Shown one piece after another: positions 2,063 to 39,095 of a stretch of 49,308 nucleotides of DNA. A program made the position numbers and the translations under genes. Numbering within the stretch: position 1 is the first letter of the stretch; every line of letters begins with the position of its first letter. Under the pieces are notes generated by a model. It did no database searches, had not been told where the DNA came from, and saw only the letters and a program-made list of their open reading frames with translations. This DNA is from Clostridiaceae bacterium (GTDB lineage: Bacteria > Bacillota_A > Clostridia > Clostridiales > Clostridiaceae), in contig JAQSXU010000019.1 of the NCBI GenBank assembly GCA_029256485.1, positions 1 through 49,308 of the forward strand, given 5' to 3'.

Positions 2063-4167
2063 ATGCAGGAAATACAAGGTTCTATTGAAGATATAGTGTT
2101 TAAAAATGATGATAATGGATATACTGTAGCTAAGTTAAAAGATGATAAAACAACTATAACCATTGTTGGATGCTTGCCATATATTATTGAAGGACAAAAT
2201 GTGAAATTAAAGGGAGAATGGGCAATACATCCACAGTTTGGTCAGCAATTCAAGGTAGAGAGTATTGAGGAAATAGTTCCTAGTTCTCTAACTGGGATTG
2301 AGAGATATTTATCCTCTGGAATTATTATGGGCATAGGACCTGTTACTGCAAAAAAGATTGTAGAGAAATTTGGAGAAAAAACATTAGAAGTTTTTATGGT
2401 GTCACACCAAATCAGTGCCTAAAAATCCATAAAAGGTTTGGCGGTGAATCTATTTCTGTAGTAAAAAATAATCCTTATGTGCTTACAGATGAAATTTCCG
2501 GAATTGGCTTTAAAACTGCAGATAAAATTGCTAGAAGTATAGGAATAGAAGCTAATTCGCCATTTAGGATTCAAAGTGGAATTATTTATATAGTTAATCA
2601 ATTCTGTATGCTAGGAAATACATATATGCCAATGAACAAATTGTTAAAAGAAAGTGTGTCTATTTTAGGCGTAAAGCAAAGTGAAGTTGAAGAAAATATA
2701 ATACAATGTACAGTTGACGGGAAACTGAAAATTGATACGGTAGAAAATAATAACTGCGTTTTTACAGTACCATATTATTACTGTGAATTAGGAGTTACAA
2801 GAAAAATACTTTCTCTTTGCTTCAATAAATATGAAGATTTAAAAATTGACATTGAAAATGATATAAATGAATTTGAGAAGGATAATAATATTAATTTTGC
2901 ACCTTCACAAAAAGAAGCCATTAGAGGAGCATTAGAAAATGGTGTTGAAATTATTACAGGTGGCCCAGGAACTGGTAAAACCACTATCATTAACTGTATT
3001 ACAGAAATATTTGAAAAGTATAGCCTAACGGTTATGATGGCTGCACCTACAGGAAGAGCAGCAAAAAGGATGACGGAAACAACTGGCAGAGAAGCAAAGA
3101 CAATTCACAGGTTATTAGAAATGGGTATAAATGAGCAGGAAAGTGATATGCTGTTTAATAGGGGAGAAGAGTCACCACTTGAATGCGATGTAATAATAGT
3201 GGATGAGGCATCAATGATAGATATTATGCTCATGAATAATCTTCTAAGAGCAATATCATTGGGTACAAGGCTGATTATTGTGGGAGATGTAGATCAATTG
3301 CCTTCAGTTGGGCCTGGAAATGTATTAAGGGATTTAATTGAAAGTAATTGTGTTAAAGTGGTTAGACTAAGGGACATATTCAGGCAATCGGAAAAAAGTA
3401 TGATAACCTTAAATGCTCATAAGATAAATAATGGTGAGATGCCAATTTTAAATGAAAAGGATAAGGATTTTTATTTTATAAGATGTGAAGAACAGAATAA
3501 AATTATAGATACACTAATTCAGCTAATTGATACTAGACTGCCTAAATTCAATAAAAGCTGGAACAAGAAATCTGATATTCAAATTTTATCTCCAATGAGG
3601 AAGGGAATACTTGGAGTATCTAATTTAAATAAAATGCTTCAAAGTGTTTTAAATCCACCCGATAAATCTAAAAATGAAAAGGAAGTAAGAGATATTATCT
3701 TCAGGGTTGGCGATAAGGTAATGCAGACAAAAAATAATTACTCGTTAAAATGGACTAGAATTAGCGGCTATGGAGAAAATGAAGGACTTGGCATATTTAA
3801 TGGGGATGTGGGTTTTATCGAAGAAATTAATCATGATAATAATACTGTAAGTATTATATTTGATGATGAGAGAAGAGTAATTTATGATAATATTTATCTA
3901 GATGAAGTTGATCTTGCATATGCAATTACTATTCATAAGAGCCAGGGAAGTGAATTTCCAGTAGTAGTAATGCCGGTTTTTAACGGTCCGCCTTTACTAA
4001 TGAATAGAAACTTGTTTTACACAGGTATTACTAGAGCTAAGAAGTTAGTGGTTTTAGTGGGGTCAATAAAGGCAATTAAGCACATGATTGACAACAATAG
4101 AAGTTTTGAGAGATATTCACTATTAAAGTGGAGAATTAAGGATATTATTGAGAGTGATATAGTATGA
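2063..4167 (+). pseudogene. recD2: RecD2/YrrC-type helicase gene with internal deletion and frameshift
   Basis: Two reading frames together match a RecD2 (RecD/TraA family) 5'-3' DNA helicase. Frame one (2063-2422) carries the N-terminal OB region and the first helix-hairpin-helix, and stays family-like up to TLEVF. Frame two becomes family-like at about 2394 (YGVTPNQC, then KIHKRFGGESI), before its first ATG at 2479, and holds Walker A GGPGTGKTT, DEASMID, GDVDQLPSVGPG and the late motif AITIHKSQGSEF. About 40 residues expected between them, including the second hairpin-helix, are missing. The frames are offset so that the lost DNA is not a multiple of three. The C-terminal part from 2479 could still be translated. 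It overlaps the next gene by four bases. A sequencing or assembly error cannot be excluded. Confidence 0.85.
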
Positions 4168-5168
4168 AAATAAATATATGGGAAAATAAAGTTAGTGAAT
4201 TTATTTATGAATGGAGTAATGGTAATGAAAAAGTATTGAATATTACTTCAGTACCATTTAATTCTTCAATATACCTATTAAAAACAATTATATCCTATGT
4301 ATATAATCAAAAAAAAATTATGTATATTACTGGGGAAAACGAAAAAGAAATTGATTTAATAGATAATATAAAACAATCTACAAAATTCAGAGGATATACA
4401 TATATTAGATCCAAAAGTATAAGTGCTGATAGCCCATTAGTAATATGTAATTATGAAAATGCGGAAGCTAGCTTGGAAAAGTATGATTTGATAATATACA
4501 ATGAGGTTAGAAGTCTTCCAGTGCATACAAAAGACCAAATTATTAATTTGGCTAAAGATAAATGCAAAGAAAACGGTAAAATAATATTTTATTCCATTGA
4601 AGGAATTGAAAATGATAATAAAGAAATATTACTTCCTGTAAATAGAAGCAGATTGCCGCAAAGTGAGCCTAGAGTTGTGCTTACCAGATTAGATATTAAC
4701 AAAGAGATACCATATGTAATTTATGAATATTTGAATTGGTCATTAAGCTCAATGAGAAAAGTAATAATTTATGTTCCAAGTATGGAACGATTGGTAAATG
4801 TTTATGGTCATATAAGCCAATGCGGAAGTAATTTAACTAAAAATATTTACTGCTATCATACAGGGGACAATGGTAAAGTGATTATAAATTTTAAACATGT
4901 AAAGGATGGAATCTTAATAACAGATGATTTTTCTTCTATATTCAATAATATAAGAAATCTTGACAAAATGATATTTTTTACTAATGATGGATTATATGAT
5001 TATAAGAAATTGGTTTATTTATGCAGTTCAAATTTACAAGGTAAAAAAGATTATAGAGGAGAGATAATTTTTTTATCTAACTCAGAAACCGATGATATGG
5101 ATACTGCTAGAAAAATAATAAGGGATTTTAATAGAGAAGCATGGGAAAGAAATTTATTAGATATATAA
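4164..5168 (+). CDS. Degenerate ComFA-like helicase-fold protein
   Basis: A 334-residue protein placed exactly where ComFA would sit, overlapping recD2 (ATGA) on one side and comFC on the other. The layout resembles a superfamily 2 helicase: a strand-helix at residues 25-60, a DLIIYNEVRSLP stretch in the place of the ComFA DEAD-like box, a RKVIIYVPSMERL strand like the start of the second RecA domain, and DGILITDDFS near motif V. The Walker A GKT is absent (SVPFNSSIYL instead) and the acidic box is YNEV. I infer a catalytically inactive ComFA relative. No function is assigned; a role beside ComFC in DNA uptake or repair is possible. Confidence 0.6.
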   Translation: MKINIWENKVSEFIYEWSNGNEKVLNITSVPFNSSIYLLKTIISYVYNQKKIMYITGENEKEIDLIDNIKQSTKFRGYTYIRSKSISADSPLVICNYENAEASLEKYDLIIYNEVRSLPVHTKDQIINLAKDKCKENGKIIFYSIEGIENDNKEILLPVNRSRLPQSEPRVVLTRLDINKEIPYVIYEYLNWSLSSMRKVIIYVPSMERLVNVYGHISQCGSNLTKNIYCYHTGDNGKVIINFKHVKDGILITDDFSSIFNNIRNLDKMIFFTNDGLYDYKKLVYLCSSNLQGKKDYRGEIIFLSNSETDDMDTARKIIRDFNREAWERNLLDI

Positions 5169-5821
5169 GATATATTTTCAATTGCATAGTGGAGTTAATT
5201 TATCCTTCATTGGAACAATGTATATTGTGTGGTAATCTTCTTGAAAATCATGAATTCCTATGTGAAGATTGCTTAAATAGTATAACAAAGTGTTCAGTTC
5301 CAATGGTAGTTAAGAGAGAAAGAGAAATTAAATGTTTCAGCTTCGCATATTATTCAAGAACAACTATGGAATTGATATTAAAGTTTAAATATAAAAATAA
5401 TTTTATATGTTCTGAGGCATTAAGTTGTTTTATGGCTGATGCATATATAAAAAACTCAATTAATTGTGATTTAATTACATACGTTCCATTAACAAAGCTT
5501 TCTTGTAGGAAAAGAGGGTTTAATCAAAGTGAAATTCTTGCAAGGTTAATTGGCAGAAGACTAAATATACCTGTTAAGGCAATGTTAATAAAAAGTAAGG
5601 AAACTAAAGATCAAATTGGACTAAGCGGCGAGAAACGCTGGGAAAATATTAAAGACAGCTTCCAAATAAAAATTGATAAAACTAAAATAAAGGACAAAAC
5701 AATATTAATTATAGATGATGTTATTACCACTGGTGCTACCTCATATAGCTGCAGTGAAGTGTTATTAAAAAATGGAGCTAAGGAAATTGTTATATTGACT
5801 GCAGCAAAAAGTAAGATATAA
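5141..5821 (+). CDS. comFC: ComFC/ComF phosphoribosyltransferase-like protein
   Basis: A 226-residue protein of the ComF family, needed for late steps of natural DNA uptake in competent bacteria. The N-terminal zinc ribbon has CILC and CEDC pairs (residues about 27-46). The C-terminal half is a type I phosphoribosyltransferase fold with the PRPP loop ILIIDDVITTGAT near residue 190 and the preceding YVPLTKLSCRKRGFNQSE segment. It overlaps the upstream gene by 28 bases, which suggests translational coupling; its own ribosome site is weak. Its 3' end overlaps a strong promoter for the RNA at 5829-6110. Confidence 0.9.
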   Translation: MGKKFIRYIRYIFNCIVELIYPSLEQCILCGNLLENHEFLCEDCLNSITKCSVPMVVKREREIKCFSFAYYSRTTMELILKFKYKNNFICSEALSCFMADAYIKNSINCDLITYVPLTKLSCRKRGFNQSEILARLIGRRLNIPVKAMLIKSKETKDQIGLSGEKRWENIKDSFQIKIDKTKIKDKTILIIDDVITTGATSYSCSEVLLKNGAKEIVILTAAKSKI

Positions 5822-5822
5822 T
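5795..5822 (+). promoter_or_regulatory. Near-consensus sigma-A promoter for the ncRNA, inside the end of comFC
   Basis: TTGACT at 5795-5800, a 16-bp spacer and TATAAT at 5817-5822. The -10 box straddles the comFC stop codon. Predicted start of transcription is about 5829, just before the structured RNA. Confidence 0.75.
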
Positions 5823-5828
5823 GTAATA

Positions 5829-6110
5829 GTAATATAATTTTATATTATAAATTAAGCTAGGTTTGTGGTTGAAAGTCGATGCCAGTCGCAGGCAAAACGA
5901 TCCACGTAAGTTAAATAAAATGTTTAATGAGCATGGTGCGGCTTAGAAGTTAGTCCTGCCGCTTAAAGCGAGAGAATTAGTAGTGAGAGGGTAATTCCGG
6001 GTAGCAAAACTTCCAGCAGGCGAGTGTGGGGTCAAAGACCAGGTCAACTGGCTTAAGAATGCATTAATAATGCGATATGGCGGTCTCTTATGAGGCTGCT
6101 ATATTTATTT
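5829..6110 (+). ncRNA. Structured non-coding RNA, probably the raiA-motif RNA
   Basis: A non-coding stretch of about 280 nt with its own promoter. Nested pairings are visible: GTGG 865-868 with CCAC 902-905, TCG 876-878 with CGA 898-900, GCC 881-883 with GGC 891-893, GCGGC 938-942 with GCCGC 958-962, GAATTA 974-979 with TAATTC 992-997 (all offsets from 5000), then CCAG/CTGG and GCATT/AATGC hairpins near 6039-6073. It ends in GGCGGTCTC/GAGGCTGCT plus a T-rich tail (6079-6110), which looks like a terminator. In clostridia the raiA RNA lies near the raiA (hpf) gene. Here hpf is 5.8 kb away across an insertion. The name rests on synteny, not on matching a covariance model. Confidence 0.55.
6018..6110 (+). 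repeat. 93-bp direct repeat, left copy (3' end of the ncRNA)
   Basis: Runs from AGGCGAGTGTGGGGTCAAA to ATATTTATTT. It matches 10842-10934 with about six substitutions in 93 positions. This copy is the natural 3' end of the RNA at 5829-6110; the other copy has no RNA body in front of it. Confidence 0.93.
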
Positions 6111-6113
6111 GTA

Positions 6114-6148
6114 TTTTAGAACCACAGGTTTTACCTGTGGTTCTAAAA
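6114..6148 (+). terminator. Left-end hairpin of the IS200-like element
   Basis: A perfect 16-bp inverted repeat (TTTTAGAACCACAGGT/ACCTGTGGTTCTAAAA) with a three-base loop, directly after the ncRNA tail and upstream of the transposase gene. IS200 elements carry such a left-end hairpin, which also blocks incoming transcription. Confidence 0.75.
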
Positions 6149-6241
6149 AGATTATAGCTATGAGTAGAAAAAATGAACCTCCATTGCTAATATAAAATTA
6201 GGTTCGCCAACCAAGTTTTATAAGCAAAGGAGGTAATCCAA

Positions 6242-6715
6242 ATGGATAGTCAGAGTTTAGCACATAGTAAATGGAATTGCAAATATCATATTGTGTTTGC
6301 ACCCAAATATCGTAGACAGATAATTTATGGGAAAGTAAAGGCAGATGTAGGGCAGATACTTAGGAATTTATGCCAGCATAAAGGGGTAGAAATAATAGAA
6401 GCAAATGTATGTCCAGACCGCATTCATATGCTGGTGAGTATACCACCAAAGTTAAGTGTAGCACAGTTTATGGGATACTTGAAAGGTAAGAGTTCGCTTA
6501 TGATATTCGATAGGCATGCCAATCTTAAATATAAGTATGGGAATAGACAATTTTGGTGTAAAGGATATTATGTTGACACAGTTGGAAGAAATAAAAAGGC
6601 AATAGAAGAATATATAAAGAACCAATTACAGGAAGATATTGCAAGTGATCAAATAAGTATGAAAGAATTTATTGACCCGTTTACGGGTGAGCCAGAAAAT
6701 AAAGGCAATAAATAA
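6242..6715 (+). CDS. tnpA: IS200-type Y1 transposase, HUH motif altered
   Basis: A 157-residue IS200/IS605 TnpA, which cuts and rejoins single-stranded DNA ends through a tyrosine. The start follows an AAAGGAGG site. Family features are WNCKYHIVFAPKYRRQ at the N-terminus, YLKGKSSLMIFDRHANL near residue 80, and FWCKGYYVDTVGRNKKAIEEYI with the catalytic tyrosine region near residues 107-125. The HUH metal site, normally PDHIHML, reads PDRIHML because the codon is CGC in place of CAC, so one metal-binding histidine is gone. This copy is probably inactive or weak unless another transposase acts in trans. Confidence 0.9.
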   Translation: MDSQSLAHSKWNCKYHIVFAPKYRRQIIYGKVKADVGQILRNLCQHKGVEIIEANVCPDRIHMLVSIPPKLSVAQFMGYLKGKSSLMIFDRHANLKYKYGNRQFWCKGYYVDTVGRNKKAIEEYIKNQLQEDIASDQISMKEFIDPFTGEPENKGNK

Positions 6716-6817
6716 ATGACCCCTTTTAGGGGTAAACAGTAAAATTGTGCGGTTGGCGGACTATTTAGCGTGTCTTGAGACACAGCCAGCATTATGCCCT
6801 TATAGGGCTAGAGCAAA

Positions 6818-6839
6818 CCACCCATTTTATAATGGGTGG
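6818..6839 (+). repeat. Right-end hairpin of the IS200-like element
   Basis: Inverted repeat CCACCCATT/AATGGGTGG with a TTAT loop, of the kind TnpA recognises as single-stranded DNA. RHS-like coding sequence starts within a few bases of it. Confidence 0.65.
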
Positions 6840-7280
6840 ACATATACCTGGGAAAAAGGAAGACAACTAAAGTCTATGATTGGAAATGGACATAGTATAA
6901 GCTATAAATATAATGATTCCGGAATAAGGAATCAGAAGACAGTAGATGGAGTAACAACTAATTACCGTCTAGTTGGAGATAAGGTAACATACGAAGATAA
7001 TGGAACTTACAAAATATATTATTCATATGATGCTTCAGGAAGCCTTGTAAGCATGAGCTTAAATGGTGCAGAATACTACTATATAAGAAATGCACAGGGA
7101 GATATAATTGGACTTTTTGATAAAACAGGAGCACAGGTTATAGCATATACCTATGATACTTGGGGTAAGCTGATATCAACTACTGAAAGTTTGGCAAGTA
7201 CTGTAGGATCTAAGAATCCATACAGAATTTTCAAAATTATTGATGCTAGGGTCTTGGTCATTACTTTTGAAAGCCATTAA
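6840..7280 (+). pseudogene. RHS/YD-repeat protein fragment
   Basis: From about 6840 to 7229 the frame reads as the C-terminal part of an RHS (YD-repeat) shell protein: TYTWEKGRQLKSM, ISYKYNDSGIRNQKTVDG, YYYIRNAQGDIIGLFD, AYTYDTWGKLIST, ending at SKNPYR. RHS proteins normally continue with YRGYYYDEETGLYYLQSRYY and then a toxin tip. Here unrelated residues and a stop follow. The 5' side ends at the IS200 right hairpin, so the open frame upstream of 6840 is IS sequence and the fragment has no proper start. It is a remnant with both ends lost, and no immunity gene is recognisable beside it. Confidence 0.8.
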
Positions 7281-7394
7281 AAATCCTCCAAAAAAATTTT
7301 ACTTAAATTATATATTATATGCAAATGTTTTCTAAGTGTTACTAATATTCATTTTAGTTTATGGTGAATTTATTTAATAATTTACATTAATTAA

Positions 7395-7425
7395 AGTTAT
7401 TATCGAAAGATAGTAACTATTTTTT
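7395..7425 (+). terminator. Hairpin terminator after the RHS fragment
   Basis: Stem AGTTATTATC/GATAGTAACT with a GAAA loop and a six-T tail. The rest of 7281-7697 holds no convincing gene: one 66-codon open stretch (7391-7588) overlaps this hairpin and lacks a start. Confidence 0.7.
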
Positions 7426-7605
7426 GATAGAACAAATTGAAACTATACATGAAATATTATGGAAAAAGGTAGAAATGGGTTTGTTAGACAGAAATAATGC
7501 AACTTTTATTTTATTATCTAATATTAATAATATTAAAGCTGTTAGAAAAAAATATTACCATTGCTATTTAAGAAAGGCTAGTATATAATAATTTTGCCGA
7601 ATAAA

Positions 7606-7626
7606 TGATAATAAAATTCAATATCA
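7606..7626 (+). promoter_or_regulatory. Possible Fur-like operator upstream of the iron permease
   Basis: AT-rich dyad TGATA(N11)TATCA about 70 bases before the efeU start. Half-sites resemble Fur boxes, but spacing is longer than the usual 7-1-7 form, so this is a weak call. Confidence 0.25.
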
Positions 7627-7697
7627 AATGGTATTAGTTATCAAATATTAAATTCGAAATTATTATTAAATAGGATTAATGAAAGGAGTAGTTAAAG

Positions 7698-9185
7698 TTG
7701 AAAAAAGTTTTTGCATTATTTTTACTTGTTATGATTACTATATCTATTTTACCTAGTACAGTTTTTGCAGCAAGTGCTGAAGAAGATTTAAACAAAGCAA
7801 ATCAAGCTGTGTTGAAATCAATTGAATCAGTTCAATCAGGAGATATGGAAAAGGTCAAAGAATCATATAATAATTTTCAAGAGAGCTGGAGGAATATTGA
7901 GGATGGAGTAAAGGCTAAATCGAAAGAAGCCTACGGTAGTATTGAAGATAAAATGGGAATGGTTACATTTTTACTTTCCCAAAATCCAATTCAAAAGGAT
8001 AAGTTGTTACAAGCTCTTAAAGATTTAGATACTGTAGATAAAGATTTTGCTTCAGGAAAGTTTAAAAGTAATGAAAATAGTAAAAGTAGTTCAAAAGATA
8101 ATGGACAGGGAAATACTACTGTTGAAGATTTAGTGAAACTTTTAGAAAAAGCAAAATCTCAAATAGATAATGGAGATACGTCAGCAGCTTTGAAAACCAT
8201 GAATAATTTTAGCTCTTCATGGCTTGATGTTGAAGGAGTAGTTCTTACTAAGTCTAAAAAGGTATATGATGATGCAGAGAAAGATATGGTTAGTGCTAAG
8301 GCATATCTTTCTACAAGTCCAGTACAAACTGATAATGCTTTAAAAGCAATTAATAAAATGCATACATATTTATCACCACTTGCAGGTGGTAATTCTTATT
8401 CAGTGGTAGATGTTATTACTATAATACTTCGTGAAGGGTTAGAAGCTCTGCTAGTGGTAATAGCATTATTGGGCTATTTAAATAGGTCAGGACATGAAGA
8501 CAAGAAAATATGGATATATGGCGGGGTTGGTATAGGCTTTGCGGTAAGTATAGTACTAGCTGTAATTGTAAAGGTCTTATTCTCATCTGGCACTTTTGGA
8601 AATAATAATTTTCTAATTTCAGGTTGGACAGGGGCATTTGCGGCAGTAATGCTTATATATGTTAGCTATTGGTTACATAGCAAATCTAGCGTTAAGGCAT
8701 GGCAAAGTTATGTTAATGATAAGAGTTCACAAGCTATAGCCACCGGTAGCTTATTTTCATTAGGATTATTAGCATTTTTAGCGGTGTTTAGAGAAGGAAC
8801 TGAAACAGTTTTATTTTATATCGGAATGGCTTCATCAATTAAGTTATCCGACTTACTTATTGGTATTGCAATTGGTATGGCTATATTAGTATTTATTGCT
8901 TTGCTTATCTTAAAGGTTGGCTTACGTATTCCAATGAGACCATTCTTTATGGTATCAAGCTTATTAGTTTTCTACTTAGGATTGAAGTTCACAGGGATGG
9001 GTATAAATGGACTACAATTAGCCGGATTATTACCTGCAACTTCTAGTGATATTCTACCTAGTATAGGTTGGATAGGAATGTACCCAACCTGGGAAGGATT
9101 TCTTCCACAGTTAATTCTAATAATAGTTGCAATTACAATGCTTTTTATAAATCAAATAAATTCAAAAGACTTAAAAGTTGACTAA
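7698..9185 (+). CDS. efeU: FTR1/EfeU-type high-affinity iron permease with extracytoplasmic helical repeats
   Basis: A 495-residue FTR1-family permease that imports ferric or ferrous iron. Residues 1-25 form a signal peptide (cleavage after VFA). Residues 26-225 hold two helical repeats with the WRNIEDGVKAKSK and WLDVEGVVLTKSK cores, and the rest has about seven membrane segments. Both iron-binding REXXE motifs are present: REGLEALLVV (about 244) and REGTETVLFY (about 364). The start is TTG, nine bases after AAAGGAG. The lipoprotein gene follows after 45 bases with no terminator between. No DyP-type peroxidase (EfeB) gene is nearby. It lies inside the accessory block. Confidence 0.88.
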   Translation: MKKVFALFLLVMITISILPSTVFAASAEEDLNKANQAVLKSIESVQSGDMEKVKESYNNFQESWRNIEDGVKAKSKEAYGSIEDKMGMVTFLLSQNPIQKDKLLQALKDLDTVDKDFASGKFKSNENSKSSSKDNGQGNTTVEDLVKLLEKAKSQIDNGDTSAALKTMNNFSSSWLDVEGVVLTKSKKVYDDAEKDMVSAKAYLSTSPVQTDNALKAINKMHTYLSPLAGGNSYSVVDVITIILREGLEALLVVIALLGYLNRSGHEDKKIWIYGGVGIGFAVSIVLAVIVKVLFSSGTFGNNNFLISGWTGAFAAVMLIYVSYWLHSKSSVKAWQSYVNDKSSQAIATGSLFSLGLLAFLAVFREGTETVLFYIGMASSIKLSDLLIGIAIGMAILVFIALLILKVGLRIPMRPFFMVSSLLVFYLGLKFTGMGINGLQLAGLLPATSSDILPSIGWIGMYPTWEGFLPQLILIIVAITMLFINQINSKDLKVD

Positions 9186-9230
9186 GATAAAAATTAAAAG
9201 CTTTAATATTTAGGAGGAAAGAGCATAATT

Positions 9231-9959
9231 ATGAATTTAAAAAAATTATTTATTGTAAGTTCTTTAGGTATAGTACTAACTTTGTCAGGATGTGGCACAC
9301 AGAAAACTGAACAAGCTTCAAATTCAGCTCAAAATCAAAATAAACTGGGGTCTTCTTCAGAAAAGCCAAAAACTCTTACTATTCAAGAGGGAAGCAATAA
9401 TATGAAAGAGGTTATTAAGCAAATGAAAACAGAACTTAATAATAAGGAAGAAGATAAGGTTATAAAAACTTCTGAAGGTTTAGAAGGAAACTGGAAGATA
9501 TTTGAGGACAATGTTAAAGAAAAATACCCTACTCTATACGAAAAAGTTGAGGATCCATTACATACTATAACTGCAGCTGTAAAGGTAAAACCTCTTGATG
9601 TCAATTCTATTAATACTGCTATGGATAATTTAGATAAGCTGCTGGATCAAGTAAAATTAGCAGACTTAACTACATCTGGTATCCAAAACATGAGAGATAT
9701 TTCAAAAAAGATGAAGGAACAGATAGCCAATAAAGAAGAGGATAACGCTATAAAAACTTCTGAAGGTTTAGAAGAAAACTGGAAGCAATTCGAGGATAAT
9801 ATTAAGGCAAAATCCCCGGCATTATATGATAGGATAGAAGAACCATTACATATTATAACTGCTGCAGTAAAAGTAAAACCACTAGATACTAAGACATTAA
9901 ACGCAAATATCGATAACTTAGATCAGCAGTTAGAACAGTTGCAAAAGTTACAGTTTTAA
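9231..9959 (+). CDS. Lipoprotein with two helical repeats, partner of the iron permease
   Basis: A 242-residue secreted lipoprotein: lipobox LSGC with Cys21, then a Ser/Asn/Gln-rich linker to about residue 50. Two tandem repeats follow with a 96-residue period (from residues 57 and 153). Both share the cores KTSEGLE-NW-FEDN-K-K and PLH-ITAAVKVKPLD. The W-FED-K-K core resembles the repeats in the exported part of the upstream permease, so I infer an iron-capture or docking partner. It is not a standard EfeO: no M75 imelysin HxxE motif is visible. Expressed with efeU and ended by the terminator at 9964-10005. Confidence 0.75.
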   Translation: MNLKKLFIVSSLGIVLTLSGCGTQKTEQASNSAQNQNKLGSSSEKPKTLTIQEGSNNMKEVIKQMKTELNNKEEDKVIKTSEGLEGNWKIFEDNVKEKYPTLYEKVEDPLHTITAAVKVKPLDVNSINTAMDNLDKLLDQVKLADLTTSGIQNMRDISKKMKEQIANKEEDNAIKTSEGLEENWKQFEDNIKAKSPALYDRIEEPLHIITAAVKVKPLDTKTLNANIDNLDQQLEQLQKLQF

Positions 9960-9963
9960 AAAT

Positions 9964-10005
9964 GCAGCTATATGTCCTGATAAGACAGGATATATAGCTA
10001 TTTTT
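9964..10005 (+). terminator. Terminator of the efeU-lipoprotein operon
   Basis: Long imperfect stem AGCTATATGTCCTG/CAGGATATATAGCT followed by ATTTTT, just after the lipoprotein stop. Confidence 0.85.
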
Positions 10006-10115
10006 GCTTGTATATGAGAAAAAATGGAACGGTTTTGATTTTGAATAGCACTAAACTATTATGTTATAAATGATATATATAAAGATAACAATGGAGTTAA
10101 TAGAATGAATAACTA

Positions 10116-10151
10116 AGAAAGTAGCATTACAAAAGATGACAGCTACTTTCT
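10116..10151 (+). repeat. Inverted repeat in gene-poor DNA
   Basis: Perfect 10-bp arms AGAAAGTAGC/GCTACTTTCT with a 16-base loop and no T run. The stretch 10006-10286 holds no other gene signal. Confidence 0.5.
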
Positions 10152-10239
10152 GGTTATGGTATAGGTGCATATTAGAATTAATAATAATTCAATTGATAGA
10201 AGTCTTAAATAGAAATACAGTAAATTTTAGACCAATTCT

Positions 10240-10289
10240 CATAACGGAAAGGGGCCGACGATGAAAGAGTTGGAAAGGTGTCCGTTATG
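10240..10289 (+). promoter_or_regulatory. Inverted repeat that would pair with the start codon of the broken small gene
   Basis: CATAACGGA (10240-10248) is the exact reverse complement of TCCGTTATG (10281-10289), and the last three bases are the ATG of the gene at 10287. Pairing would hide the start codon and bring the GGAAAGGTG ribosome site into the loop edge. Confidence 0.4.
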
Positions 10290-10541
10290 AAAGTTGGTAG
10301 TTTAGAATCTGAATATTGCATAGGAAAACATATTTGGCCACTTTATCTAATTAGAGGAATTCTATGTGTCGGATTTTCATTATTTATTGTTGACAAGATG
10401 GTATCTATTTTAATTGCAGTATTAGGCTTTACAATGTTTTGATAGATTCATGAACTGTATAAACAGGAAGAACGAGTAAAAAAAGGTCGGTTTCCTGCTA
10501 ATCCAAAAAAGAAAACAGTAAAGAAAAGTACTATTATATAG
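10287..10541 (+). pseudogene. Small membrane protein gene with two consecutive stop codons
   Basis: Reads 51 codons from an ATG with a GGAAAGGTG site: a polar N-terminus, then two hydrophobic segments (WPLYLIRGILCVGFSLFIV and VSILIAVLGFTMF). TGA at 10440 and TAG at 10443 then interrupt the frame, after which it stays open to 10541 with a coherent basic tail (IHELYKQEERVKKGRFPANPKKK). TGG and CAG would restore an 84-residue protein, so the gene looks recently broken. A truncated 51-residue product is still possible. The family is not recognised with confidence; the layout is like small two-helix DUF2892-type proteins. Confidence 0.5.
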
Positions 10542-10841
10542 ATTAATTACCATGATTTCATAGTTTCTTTTTTTTATTAAAATATTTTATTTTAATTATA
10601 AGGGCTGAGAAATTCTAGTAGGATATGTGGAGATTGTGGGCAGATAGTGTAACGTAAGCTTTCACAAATCCCCATACCTTTCAGATTATTATTAATTAAT
10701 AAATTATAAATTATTCCCGATTCATTCCCGACTGAGTTAATAAATAATACAGTTTATATATAAAAAGATATAACTAGGTAAGCTAGTAGTATCAAGACTT
10801 GCACACACTCCATCATAAAATATAAGTAAGACTGTTTCTAA

Positions 10842-10934
10842 AGGCGAGTGTGGGGTCAAAAACCAGGTCAACTGACTTAAGAATGCATTAATAATGCGCA
10901 ATGGCGGTCTCTTTTGAGGCTGCCATATTTATTT
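10842..10934 (+). repeat. 93-bp direct repeat, right copy (orphan ncRNA 3' end)
   Basis: About 94% identical to 6018-6110, including the GCATT/AATGC hairpin and the terminal GGCGGTCTC TTTT GAGGCTGCC hairpin. The sequence upstream (10542-10841) does not resemble the 5' two-thirds of the RNA and has no recognised promoter or gene, so this copy is an orphan 3' end marking the right edge of the accessory block. Confidence 0.93.
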
Positions 10935-10952
10935 TGAGGCTGCCATATTTAT
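10913..10952 (+). repeat. Tandem 20-bp duplication at the end of the right repeat copy
   Basis: The unit TTTGAGGCTGCCATATTTAT occurs twice in a row (10913-10932 and 10933-10952). The left copy at 6018-6110 has this unit once only. Confidence 0.9.
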
Positions 10953-11236: not shown

Positions 11237-11695
11237 ATGTCAATAGGCCTGTTTGGAGTAATTGGACTGGCAGCTTATATAGAGTGCAGACCGATTAACA
11301 CTGGAATGACGGCTCAAATTAAGGGAAGGGAAATTAATATTAGTGAAGTAAAAAAGGAGGAATATATAAACACATGTTTTTCTGAGGATGAAAATTGGAT
11401 AAATGTTATAGTCTCATATTATACAAATAATATATCAGATTGTAATAAAACAGATGGAATTGGAGCAAACAATTTAAAACTTAGCAGGGGAAACATAGCC
11501 ATGCCTAAGGAATATCCTTTTGGTACAAAATTATATTTAGAAAACATGGGAGTGTTTGTTAACCAGGATATAGGTGGAGCAATAAAGAGGATAAATAATA
11601 ATACAATTAAAATAGATATGTATATACCGGATGTTAGTGAAGAATATTTAAGAAAATTAGGAATTAAAAAGGCTAGGGGTAAGGTAATCAAATAA
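11237..11695 (+). CDS. Small 3D-domain protein (YabE/MltA-like C-terminal fold)
   Basis: A 152-residue protein. Residues 3-17 are a hydrophobic export or anchor segment without the usual leading lysines. The C-terminal half is a 3D (Asp-Asp-Asp) domain: LSRGNIAMPKEYPFGTKLYLE, VNQDIGGAI and IKIDMYI supply the spaced aspartates seen in cell-wall lytic proteins such as the Rpf/YabE C-terminus. There is no G5, LysM or NlpC domain, so it is a minimal version. The ATG follows AAGGTGGTG, and an in-frame stop 13 bases upstream rules out a longer form. It lies between the accessory block and hpf. Confidence 0.75.
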   Translation: MSIGLFGVIGLAAYIECRPINTGMTAQIKGREINISEVKKEEYINTCFSEDENWINVIVSYYTNNISDCNKTDGIGANNLKLSRGNIAMPKEYPFGTKLYLENMGVFVNQDIGGAIKRINNNTIKIDMYIPDVSEEYLRKLGIKKARGKVIK

Positions 11696-11880: not shown

Positions 11881-11933
11881 AACATAGTTTATTTTACAAA
11901 AATCACCTACGGGGTGTGAGAGGGGCTGAAAAC

Positions 11934-12464
11934 ATGAAGATAACAGTAAATGGGAAAAACATCGATATTACTAATGGGCTTAGGAGTGCAGTTGAAAAAA
12001 AGTTGTTTAGATTGGATAAATATTTCAACCCTGAAGTAGAGGCACATGCTACTTTAAGTGTTCAAAAGACAAGACAAATAATCGAAGTTACGATACCTTT
12101 TAATGGAGTAATATTAAGAGGTGAGGAATCAAATGATGATATGTACGCTTCAATTGATTTAGTTGTAGATAAATTAGAAAGACAAATAAGAAAACAGAAA
12201 ACAAAATTGGAAAGAAGAAATCATGGTGATTCATTAAGATTTCAGTATATTCCAGATGTAGATGAAAAAGAAAAAGCTGAAGGAAAAATTGTTAAGACTA
12301 AGAAATTTGCAATAAAACCTATGTCAAATGAGGAAGCTGTATTGCAGATGGAATTACTAGGACACAATTTCTTTGTATATGAAAATGCCGATAATGGTGA
12401 AGTAAATGTTATCTATAAGAGAAAAGATGGGAACTTTGGTTTAATCGAACCTGAATTTGAATAA
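11934..12464 (+). CDS. hpf: Long-form ribosome hibernation promoting factor (RaiA/HPF)
   Basis: A 176-residue long HPF. The N-terminal ribosome-binding domain (1-100) begins MKITVNGKNIDIT and has the usual beta-alpha pattern. After a charged linker comes the dimerisation domain with VKTKKFAIKPMSNEEAVLQMELLGHNFFVY near residues 117-150. It binds the 30S subunit and pairs ribosomes into inactive 100S dimers in stationary phase. I chose the ATG at 11934, eight bases after GAGAGGGG, over the GTG at 11916 that overlaps that site. A terminator separates it from secA. The proposed raiA RNA that normally neighbours it is displaced by the accessory block. Confidence 0.95.
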   Translation: MKITVNGKNIDITNGLRSAVEKKLFRLDKYFNPEVEAHATLSVQKTRQIIEVTIPFNGVILRGEESNDDMYASIDLVVDKLERQIRKQKTKLERRNHGDSLRFQYIPDVDEKEKAEGKIVKTKKFAIKPMSNEEAVLQMELLGHNFFVYENADNGEVNVIYKRKDGNFGLIEPEFE

Positions 12465-36636: not shown

Positions 36637-37313
36637 GGAGTATCCTTCCTTTCCTGAAAGTAAAATTCCCCTTTTGAATCAATCATGGCAATAAAAACAT
36701 CCTTTGCATCTGAAATGTTGTATTTACTTAGTTTTTTATTCACCCAGTTAATATCCTTTTTTAATAATTTTAAATTGTCATAGTTTACTTTACCATCTAA
36801 GATCAAAGTAATAGGCATTGCATCCTGGGTAGTTTGTATCTTCATATCCTGCTTTGTTACATTTGAAAGTTCAGTCTTAGGAATTATGGACAGCTGTCCG
36901 CTGGTTTCTAAAATTGCATACTGCACATCTGAAATATTATAGTACCCCTGAAGCCTTACCTCCTCCATTAAATCATTAAGATTATATTTATTATTTTTTA
37001 ATTGGTTAATATCAATTTTGCCATCCTTAATAATAATACTTGGCTCACCGCTGAATAATTTTCTGGCAAATTCACTTTTTAATTCTAATATTGATAAAGT
37101 AATTTCTAAAATAAGTAATGTTACAATGGGAATAATACCATTTAACAAAGGTATCTTAGTATCCTGCATAGGTAATGATGCCAATTCAGAAATCATAATA
37201 GCTATAGCTAATTCAAAGGGCTGCAGCTGCCCTATTTGTTTTTTGCCCATTAGCCTCATTGTTATTACAACTAGAAAATATAAAATTGCAGTTCTTATGA
37301 GTGTAATAAACAT
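36633..37313 (-). CDS. DUF421/YetF-like membrane protein
   Basis: A 226-residue protein with three membrane segments in the first 80 residues (MFITLIRTAILYFLVVITM, LASLPM region, LLNGIIPIVTLLILEITL) and the family stretch RLMGKKQIGQLQPFELAIA. The cytosolic part has GEPSIIIKDGKID and LMEEVRLQGYYNISDVQYAILETSGQLSI, typical of YetF/DUF421. The start is taken at 37313 because the ATG at 37331 lies within the GGAGGTG ribosome site. Paired with DUF4363. Confidence 0.85.
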   Translation of the reverse strand: MFITLIRTAILYFLVVITMRLMGKKQIGQLQPFELAIAIMISELASLPMQDTKIPLLNGIIPIVTLLILEITLSILELKSEFARKLFSGEPSIIIKDGKIDINQLKNNKYNLNDLMEEVRLQGYYNISDVQYAILETSGQLSIIPKTELSNVTKQDMKIQTTQDAMPITLILDGKVNYDNLKLLKKDINWVNKKLSKYNISDAKDVFIAMIDSKGEFYFQERKDTP

Positions 37314-37433
37314 TAAGAATAACACCTCCATAGTTCTATTCTGCTAAAAAAAAGTAAAATTATAAGTGAAAAAGTAACAATTTTATATTTAATAAAGTAT
37401 AATAATATTACATCCGAAAATAGGAGATGAATT

Positions 37434-39095
37434 TTGGTGGAGAAATTAAAAGTAAAGTTTAGTAATGGTACTAATGAACTTTGTGAGTATGGGGAAATAA
37501 TAGGTAATATTTTTAAAGAAAAGTATAAAGATACAAACCCAAAACCAGTATTAGCTAAAGTAAATAATAAATATTATGAACTAACTTCACCACTAAATGA
37601 AGAGGGAGAAATAAAACCAGTATTTATTAATGAAAACATGGGGCTGAAAAGCTATATTAGAACATTGCAGTTTATCTTAATTAAGGCTGTATCAGATTTA
37701 TATAAAAATAGTAAGATTACCATTGAACATTCTATAAGTAAAGGAATATTCGGAGAAATCCATAAAGAAACACCACTTACTGAAGATGATATATGCAAAA
37801 TAAAGAAGAAAATGAAGGAAATAATAGATAAAGATTTTTTAATAAATAAAACAACTGTTAAAAAAGATGGTGCTATTAAAATTTTTACAGATTATAATAT
37901 GCCTGATAAAGTAAAACTATTAAGACAGTTAGATGTAGAATGTTTAAAATTATATGAATTAGATGGAAGATATGATTACTTTTATGGACCTATGGCATAT
38001 TCTACTGGAGTAATCTATAAGTTCGATTTAATTTTTTATAATCCTGGATTTATATTAAGGTACCCTAGCTTAGACAATCCGTCAGAAATACCGCCATTTA
38101 AGGAATATGCTAAGCTGGCTAAGATATTTTATGAAACAGAAAAATGGGGAGAAATATTAGAAGTTGGAGATGTTGGATCCCTTAATAATAAAGTTATTGA
38201 TGGGGATATAGTTGACATTATAAGAGTATCTGAAGCACTTCATGAAAAAAAGATAGCATATATAGCAGATACTATAGCGGAAAAAGAAAAAGTAAAAATA
38301 GTGCTTATTGCAGGCCCTTCATCATCAGGCAAAACAACATTTGCAAAGCGGTTAGCTATTCAGCTAAGGGTAAATGGATTAGTACCAATACCAATTTCCC
38401 TGGATGATTACTTTGTTGACAGACAGCATACACCAAGGGATGAAAATGGAGATTATGATTTTGAATCAATAAATGCTTTGGATTTACAATTATTTAATGA
38501 AAATTTACAATTACTTCTTCAGGGGGAAGAAACCTATATACCAAGCTATAATTTTAAAACAGGCAATAGAGAATGGAGCGGAAATAAGATAAAGCTGCCT
38601 CAGAATGGGGTTTTAATAATTGAAGGAATTCACGGTCTAAATGATATGCTAACTAATTCCATACCTAAGGAGAATAAATTTAAAATATACATTAGTGCTT
38701 TGACCCAATTAAATTTGGACTGTCATAACAGAATATCTACAACTGATGTAAGAATAATCAGAAGGATAGTTAGAGATTATTTATCTAGGGGATATGTTGC
38801 TGAAGACACATTAAAGATGTGGCCGTCCATAAAAAGGGGAGAAGAAAATAATATTTTTGTATATCAGGAGAATGCAGATGTTATGTTTAACTCCACTTTG
38901 GTATATGAGCTATGTATTTTAAAAAAGTATGCCTTGGCAGAGCTAGAGAAAATTGATATTAACAGTCAGGTATACTATGAAGCATTAAGGTTAAGCAGTT
39001 TCTTACATTTTTTTAAGGATGTAGAAGGAGAGCTTGTTCCGGAGAATTCAATTTTAAGGGAATTTATAGGGGGAAGTTGTTTCTATAAGTACTAG
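37434..39095 (+). CDS. Uridine-kinase-like P-loop kinase with N-terminal TGS/ThrRS-like domains
   Basis: A 553-residue protein. The first 60 residues resemble a TGS domain. Residues 80-230 resemble the threonyl/alanyl-tRNA synthetase second additional domain (IEHSISKGIFGEI, LTEDDICKIKKKMKEIIDKD). From about 285 comes a phosphoribulokinase/uridine-kinase domain: Walker A AGPSSSGKTTFAKRL, PISLDDYFVDRQHTP, ESINALDLQLFNENL and VLIIEGIHGLND. The family is widespread in Firmicutes and Thermotogae; the phosphorylated substrate is not certain. The start is TTG at 37434 (GTG at 37437 is equally placed) seven bases after AGGAG. Confidence 0.88.
   Translation: MVEKLKVKFSNGTNELCEYGEIIGNIFKEKYKDTNPKPVLAKVNNKYYELTSPLNEEGEIKPVFINENMGLKSYIRTLQFILIKAVSDLYKNSKITIEHSISKGIFGEIHKETPLTEDDICKIKKKMKEIIDKDFLINKTTVKKDGAIKIFTDYNMPDKVKLLRQLDVECLKLYELDGRYDYFYGPMAYSTGVIYKFDLIFYNPGFILRYPSLDNPSEIPPFKEYAKLAKIFYETEKWGEILEVGDVGSLNNKVIDGDIVDIIRVSEALHEKKIAYIADTIAEKEKVKIVLIAGPSSSGKTTFAKRLAIQLRVNGLVPIPISLDDYFVDRQHTPRDENGDYDFESINALDLQLFNENLQLLLQGEETYIPSYNFKTGNREWSGNKIKLPQNGVLIIEGIHGLNDMLTNSIPKENKFKIYISALTQLNLDCHNRISTTDVRIIRRIVRDYLSRGYVAEDTLKMWPSIKRGEENNIFVYQENADVMFNSTLVYELCILKKYALAELEKIDINSQVYYEALRLSSFLHFFKDVEGELVPENSILREFIGGSCFYKY

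Follow-up and report, generated by a model that had tools for sequence, protein, structure and literature searches.

Islands that split a tRNA or tmRNA gene and rebuild it are treated as classical in the sections available of PMC4383910, and the excerpt available of a review (PMC7380047) places the integration site of phage PhiW104 (Balbontin 2008) at the 3' end of ryeB, a small RNA gene of Salmonella. The RNA considered here, raiA (ModT), is the subject of two papers whose available sections deal with its function, structure and variable terminators (PMC11706538, PMC11751092); the former describes the 3' extension of ModT as poorly conserved and its terminators as varying, and discusses this as loss over time. 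In the text available, the terms "prophage" and "genomic context" are absent from PMC11706538, and "phage" and "integrase" from PMC11751092. Among the matches listed in the literature searched, these raiA papers included, we came across no account of integration at raiA.

We analysed a stretch of 49,308 nucleotides from a Clostridiaceae bacterium (assembly GCA_029256485.1, contig JAQSXU010000019.1), hereafter the window. Comparison of its raiA locus with those of related genomes and of viral contigs makes it very probable that the 3' end of raiA serves as the chromosomal attachment site (attB) for a family of temperate phages of clostridia and for the relics that descend from these phages, and that the window holds one such element in advanced decay. 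Within the window, the genes and repeats from comFC to hpf all lie on the forward strand. The raiA gene (5852-6056), the proposed integration target, follows comFC (5141-5821; PF00156; name taken from the initial annotation), a conserved left neighbour that occupies the same place in relatives. The conserved right neighbour is hpf (11916-12464; PF02482, PF16321), preceded by a gene for a 3D-domain protein (11237-11695) that adjoins hpf in the closest relative, G190, too. Further upstream, the window opens with a row of five tRNA genes (16-457) followed by a SAM riboswitch, and two ORFs (2063-2422 and 2479-4167) are seemingly one split helicase gene, which we take to be of the RecD2 type.

The initial annotation had described a direct repeat of about 94% identity whose left copy completes a noncoding RNA and whose right copy lacks an RNA body, bounding an accessory block without an integrase, and this description stands at every point. 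The copies occupy exactly 6018-6110 and 10842-10934, with 6 mismatches in 93 nt (93.5% identity), a spacing of 4824 and, at both ends, an adjacent base that differs between the copies. The repeat is composed of the last 39 nt of the raiA model and the terminator behind it. The left copy, the putative attL, spans the core, with the 3' strand of helix P1 in raiA, as well as the terminator, and completes a full-length raiA (RF03072, model positions 1-209, 204 bits against a gathering cut-off of 101.3). An Rfam scan of the window returned this single raiA and no second raiA body before the right copy, which is preceded by the flank TTTCTAA. Inspection of the sequence also revealed a 20-bp direct duplication at the right copy's end (10912-10931 and 10932-10951), within its terminator stem, and a perfect 16-bp hairpin (6114-6148, not assigned to a strand) directly behind the raiA terminator, flanked by T and A runs, which could be either the end of an IS200-like element or a (second) terminator.

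The block between the copies has the contents announced by the initial annotation: an IS200, an RHS fragment, iron uptake and a broken small gene. It begins with an IS200-type transposase (6242-6715; PF01797, E 6e-40) and an RHS-repeat fragment (6747-7280) whose match to PF05593 (E 5e-4, 20.7 bits) falls below the Pfam cut-off of 22. An FTR1-family iron permease follows (7698-9185; Pfam match), with close relatives in 12 of 200 genomes; those of G098 and G094 come nearest, at 88-89% identity, and lie at other loci, far from raiA. The FTR1 genes may have come either with the phage or later. The next ORF (9231-9959) matches nothing above any Pfam cut-off and reads as lipoprotein-like from its N-terminus; within it, a 209-nt unit occurs twice (9441-9649 and 9729-9937) at 76% identity. 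Finally, a small membrane-protein-like frame (10245-10541) is interrupted by stops near 10442. Since no integrase was found in the block, we class it as a relic rather than a functional element; most likely it is what remains of a mobile element that entered the end of the raiA gene and then decayed.

Searching with window positions 5840-6125 across 206 genomes of the family of G001, we found matches in 183 and a second match in 6 (E <= 0.001). With second matches in only 6 of the 206 genomes, the repeat is not a dispersed family. Nor do relatives all carry the same genes between two repeats: in G190 two other genes, which on inspection look like a P-type ATPase gene and one of ROK type, fill the same interval (5242-8832 of its locus), with no second raiA copy. 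The initial annotation had singled out both outcomes as adverse to an island, and neither was seen. Compared with named phages and plasmids, the repeat gave merely short partial matches. Under a looser limit, the second match starts at query position 179, corresponding to window position 6018, in G185 (17 kb downstream of raiA), G109 (10.7 kb downstream), and G147 and G168 (both on another contig); in G183 the second copy is decayed and starts 9 nt later, and that of G186, at a contig edge, was left out. To the left of the break base, right copies have no raiA likeness, and four of the six, the window's included, carry a TTTCTAA or TTTCTTA flank. These data bear on an alternative in which the repeat stems from a duplicated segment or from two raiA copies that recombined, the second raiA then losing its 5' part while genes gathered between. 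The window copies are indeed alike across the terminator too, and the block has no integrase, as such an origin would allow. However, the missing raiA body, the break at the same base in other genomes and the recurrent flank, together with the arm repeats and the phage attP described below, leave a duplication very improbable as the source of the block.

Integrase-bearing islands at the same point had been suggested as a further comparison, and elements of this sort occur there in two genomes. Directly behind raiA in G168, 93 nt away and on the opposite strand, lies a gene for a tyrosine integrase of 396 aa (PF00589, PF14659). Next to it come an ImmA/IrrE-like gene (Peptidase_M78) and a CI-type repressor (HTH); the other copy of the repeat in this genome, nearly identical over about 98 nt, stands before hpf on another contig. 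G083 has a whole integrase (66% identity) about 112 nt behind raiA, and fragments lie at raiA in G109, G147, G148 and G167, those of G147 and G167 being short and detected by tblastn only. A fragment of the same clade (67%) in G127 lies 10.7 kb from raiA and does not adjoin it. Among 225 genomes of the order, this integrase was found at E <= 1e-100 only in G168 and G083, both at raiA. There were 24 remoter matches (33-38% identity), 20 of them in genomes with a listed raiA position; none of these 20 is near raiA, the nearest on raiA's contig being 136 kb away. A database search returned 71 proteins at E <= 1e-60, of which 60 (P0001-P0060) have 63-92% identity, some of them assigned to Clostridium autoethanogenum, C. 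estertheticum and C. intestinale, followed by 11 at 36-40%; the raiA-site integrases thus form a discrete clade. Six residues (R214, K262, H338, R341, H364 and Y375) are invariant across 25 aligned sequences, and correspond to the catalytic Arg, Lys, HxxR, His and Tyr of tyrosine recombinases. Relatives in named phages (searched with the G168 integrase) and in plasmids (searched with P0009) all have less than 60% identity. Beyond the family, a class-wide sample contained raiA in 57 of 291 genomes, 48 of them outside the 206-genome scan, and the integrase model found nothing in the 40 raiA loci fetched from these 48.

The proposed insertion can be followed in G109, which groups on the tree with G105 and G108, where hpf lies 541 and 470 bp behind raiA. 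This pair of single-copy genomes and their occupied sister provides, among relatives of the window, the empty-site comparison that the initial annotation had called for. Fused to each other at the core, the flanks of the G109 block give a 2,100-nt query that aligns over its full length with G105 (90%) and G108 (84%), as well as with the more distant G106 and G107 (74%). Without this fusion, alignment to G105 and G108 ends 38 nt inside the core; to G106 and G107, both of which carry an element-type tail, it continues for another 49 nt. The tail at the right end of G109 matches the native terminator of G108, whereas the tail of its raiA is different and of the element type. The 37 nt common to both G109 copies correspond to window positions 6018-6054, which is where crossover would be expected. 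Of the 9 pairs of helix P1 in G109, 7 form with the new strand versus 8 with the displaced one. Across the loci scored, pairing persists, with a mean of 8.4 of 9 for element-type tails (36 loci) versus 8.5 without them (66 loci), both means including L054 and L068.

Additional putative marks of site-specific recombination appear to the left of the right copies. In the window, the motif ATTCCCGA occurs as a pair with an 11-bp step (10713-10732), its two members beginning 129 and 118 nt before the right core, an arrangement expected by chance 0.02 times per window with up to 2 mismatches allowed. The same pair lies at 129/118 nt in G185 and at 127/116 nt in G168, and a second type (TTAGCCACC and variants) lies at 126/115 nt in G109 and at 127/116 nt in the viral contigs G207 and G208. 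In all, paired 8-9-bp repeats stand 115-129 nt left of the core in 6 of 8 attR or attP ends; they are absent at the right copies of G147 and G183. These arm-type repeats are putative integrase arm sites, and it is on account of their presence that we read the right end of the window block as attR. The left side of the window element has no arm repeats, and the IS200-like gene sits there.

The raiA core is also present in two IMG/VR contigs. In the 41-kb G207, an integrase gene (37281-38465; 65% identity) is followed by the raiA 3' end and terminator at 38539-38621, in a match that starts at the equivalent of window position 6018; behind the core lie ORFs with matches to endolysin families and a weak match to a holin family. 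A 2.8-kb stretch of G207 scanned against Rfam gave no match, so no raiA body stands beside the core, which is the arrangement expected of a phage attP; the core is internal to the contig, which as a virus record may be a fragment. The 8,060-bp G208 (8 kb, locus L143) has the raiA core at one end and the start of an integrase with an internal stop at the other, and might be a short element, some 9 kb long. Scanning IMG/VR with a single integrase sequence gave no confirmed match; an alignment-based scan kept 80 of 96 loci, of which three have 65-66% identity, G207 among them, and the rest at most 35%. G506 and G507, the contigs of the remaining two, break off just past the integrase, with no core in the sequence present. 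An IMG/VR scan for the TTCTNAAGGCG flank plus core returned none. A scan for the arm motifs retrieved a sole IMG/VR contig, L213, ruled out as it has no core and no credible integrase.

The events behind such a locus can be outlined as follows. The tyrosine integrase of the element would recombine the raiA attB with an attP that holds the last ~39 nt of raiA and the terminator. After integration, attL would comprise a whole raiA whose P1 3' strand and terminator derive from the element, and the host's own raiA 3' end would be displaced to the far end, at attR. In the window, decay would have left attL at 6018-6110 and attR at 10842-10934 with its arms at 10713-10732, the integrase having been lost, with the IS200, the RHS fragment and the iron-uptake genes between, a cargo that we suppose arrived with or after the element. 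The initial annotation's proposal of an island integrated at an RNA 3' end, with that end rebuilt on one side, is therefore borne out by the empty and occupied pair, the site-specific integrases, the phage attP and the arm repeats, and its view of the RNA as an integration site is supported, the RNA proving to be a known Rfam family, raiA. As far as sequence comparison can tell, clostridial phages appear to insert at raiA repeatedly, bringing a new 3' end each time.

We gauged how widespread these tails are in 149 raiA loci, comprising the window and 148 of the 183 matching genomes (35 were left out). The classification set aside seven loci: L054, a duplicate of G185; L065, L067, L069 and L137, without a full raiA; and L068 and L139, at a contig edge. 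An element-type tail is present in 34 of the 149, a proportion that is no unbiased frequency, the loci having been fetched by similarity to a query that holds the window's own tail. More than 700 bp separate raiA from hpf in 23 of the 34 loci with such a tail versus 5 of the 115 others (Fisher p 3e-14, kinship ignored; loci without hpf in the stretch counted at the available length), a comparison whose tail pattern and 700-bp limit we chose once the data had been inspected; the pattern was later widened, bringing in the window and a few others. Arm motifs, mostly 64-79 nt behind the raiA end, accompany 16 of the 34 element-type tails versus 1 of the 115 others. On a tree of 98 loci, the tail requires at least 15 changes. 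Across 31 distinct tails, 5 of the 8 pairs in the 8-bp terminator stem vary in pair type, with 5 mismatched cells, which lends weak support, as the selecting pattern itself requires such a stem.

Several observations run counter to insertion at raiA. The window block lacks an integrase and, on its left side, arm repeats. The extra copy of G147 is on another contig, without arms and with no hpf in the stretch examined, and that of G183, decayed and offset by 9 nt, has no arms either. G190, the closest relative, is filled by different genes and shows no second copy; used to polarise the window copies, it agrees with each at 2 of the differing sites and so favours neither as the original. The clade fragment of G127 does not adjoin raiA. 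Finally, hpf is within 700 bp for 11 of the 34 element-type tails, while 5 of the 115 others lie beyond. The interval behind raiA might instead be merely a tolerant intergenic region, into which unrelated genes were brought by homologous recombination or IS activity, the repeats being chance survivals. This fits the many islands with unrelated cargo and no second copy in the stretch fetched, and such a process may explain later cargo such as the FTR1 genes. Yet a tolerant region would hardly account for the integrases of one clade, whole or fragmentary, that six genomes have at a fixed place, for arm motifs concentrated behind element-type tails, or for a clean empty and occupied pair. The phage attP likewise argues against a tolerant region as the whole story, a reading that we hold to have a very small chance of being correct. 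A sub-point compatible with phage insertion at raiA is that the element-type tail is the ancestral clostridial raiA terminator, which elements copy and which native-type tails later replaced. Related species often share the tail, and three genomes carry it only 207 bp from hpf; against this, the displaced tail of G109 is that of its sister G108, so that there the host tail went out and the element tail came in, and we consider an ancestral tail rather unlikely. These three genomes, G129, G130 and G132 (loci L044, L045 and L055), could possibly bear scars that remained after loss of an element.

If phages insert at raiA as proposed, a conserved and abundant RNA joins the noncoding RNA genes used as phage integration sites, with a rule for locating where clostridial islands behind raiA end and an integrase clade whose target is a predicted, defined stretch of 37 nt. 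Replacement by elements may account for part of the terminator variation of raiA/ModT. Lysogeny would rewrite part of P1 and the terminator of what is among the cell's most abundant RNAs, and a speculative extension, to which we give little credence, is that phages thereby alter the isoforms or level of an RNA with a part in sporulation and in the growth transition, perhaps for their own advantage. Structures say little about the choice of site: the Int of PDB 6emy/6en0 and the integrase 3nkh align with the raiA-site integrase over the catalytic domain, at a weak similarity (E 2e-10 to 1e-5) that gives no hint of the target. The closest parallels are those with which we began. As in the tRNA and tmRNA islands covered by the sections available of PMC4383910, a tyrosine integrase is involved, the target RNA gene is restored and a displaced fragment marks the far end; unlike in those islands, the target is raiA, a structured RNA of about 205 nt, and the rebuilt piece includes the terminator. 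With PhiW104 at ryeB, as far as the excerpt describes it, raiA shares a phage att site in the terminal bases of a noncoding RNA other than tRNA or tmRNA, but RNA and host differ, and here many genomes of one bacterial family are concerned. Integration at the 3' end of an RNA gene is thus of a known kind, while raiA appears to be a new target.
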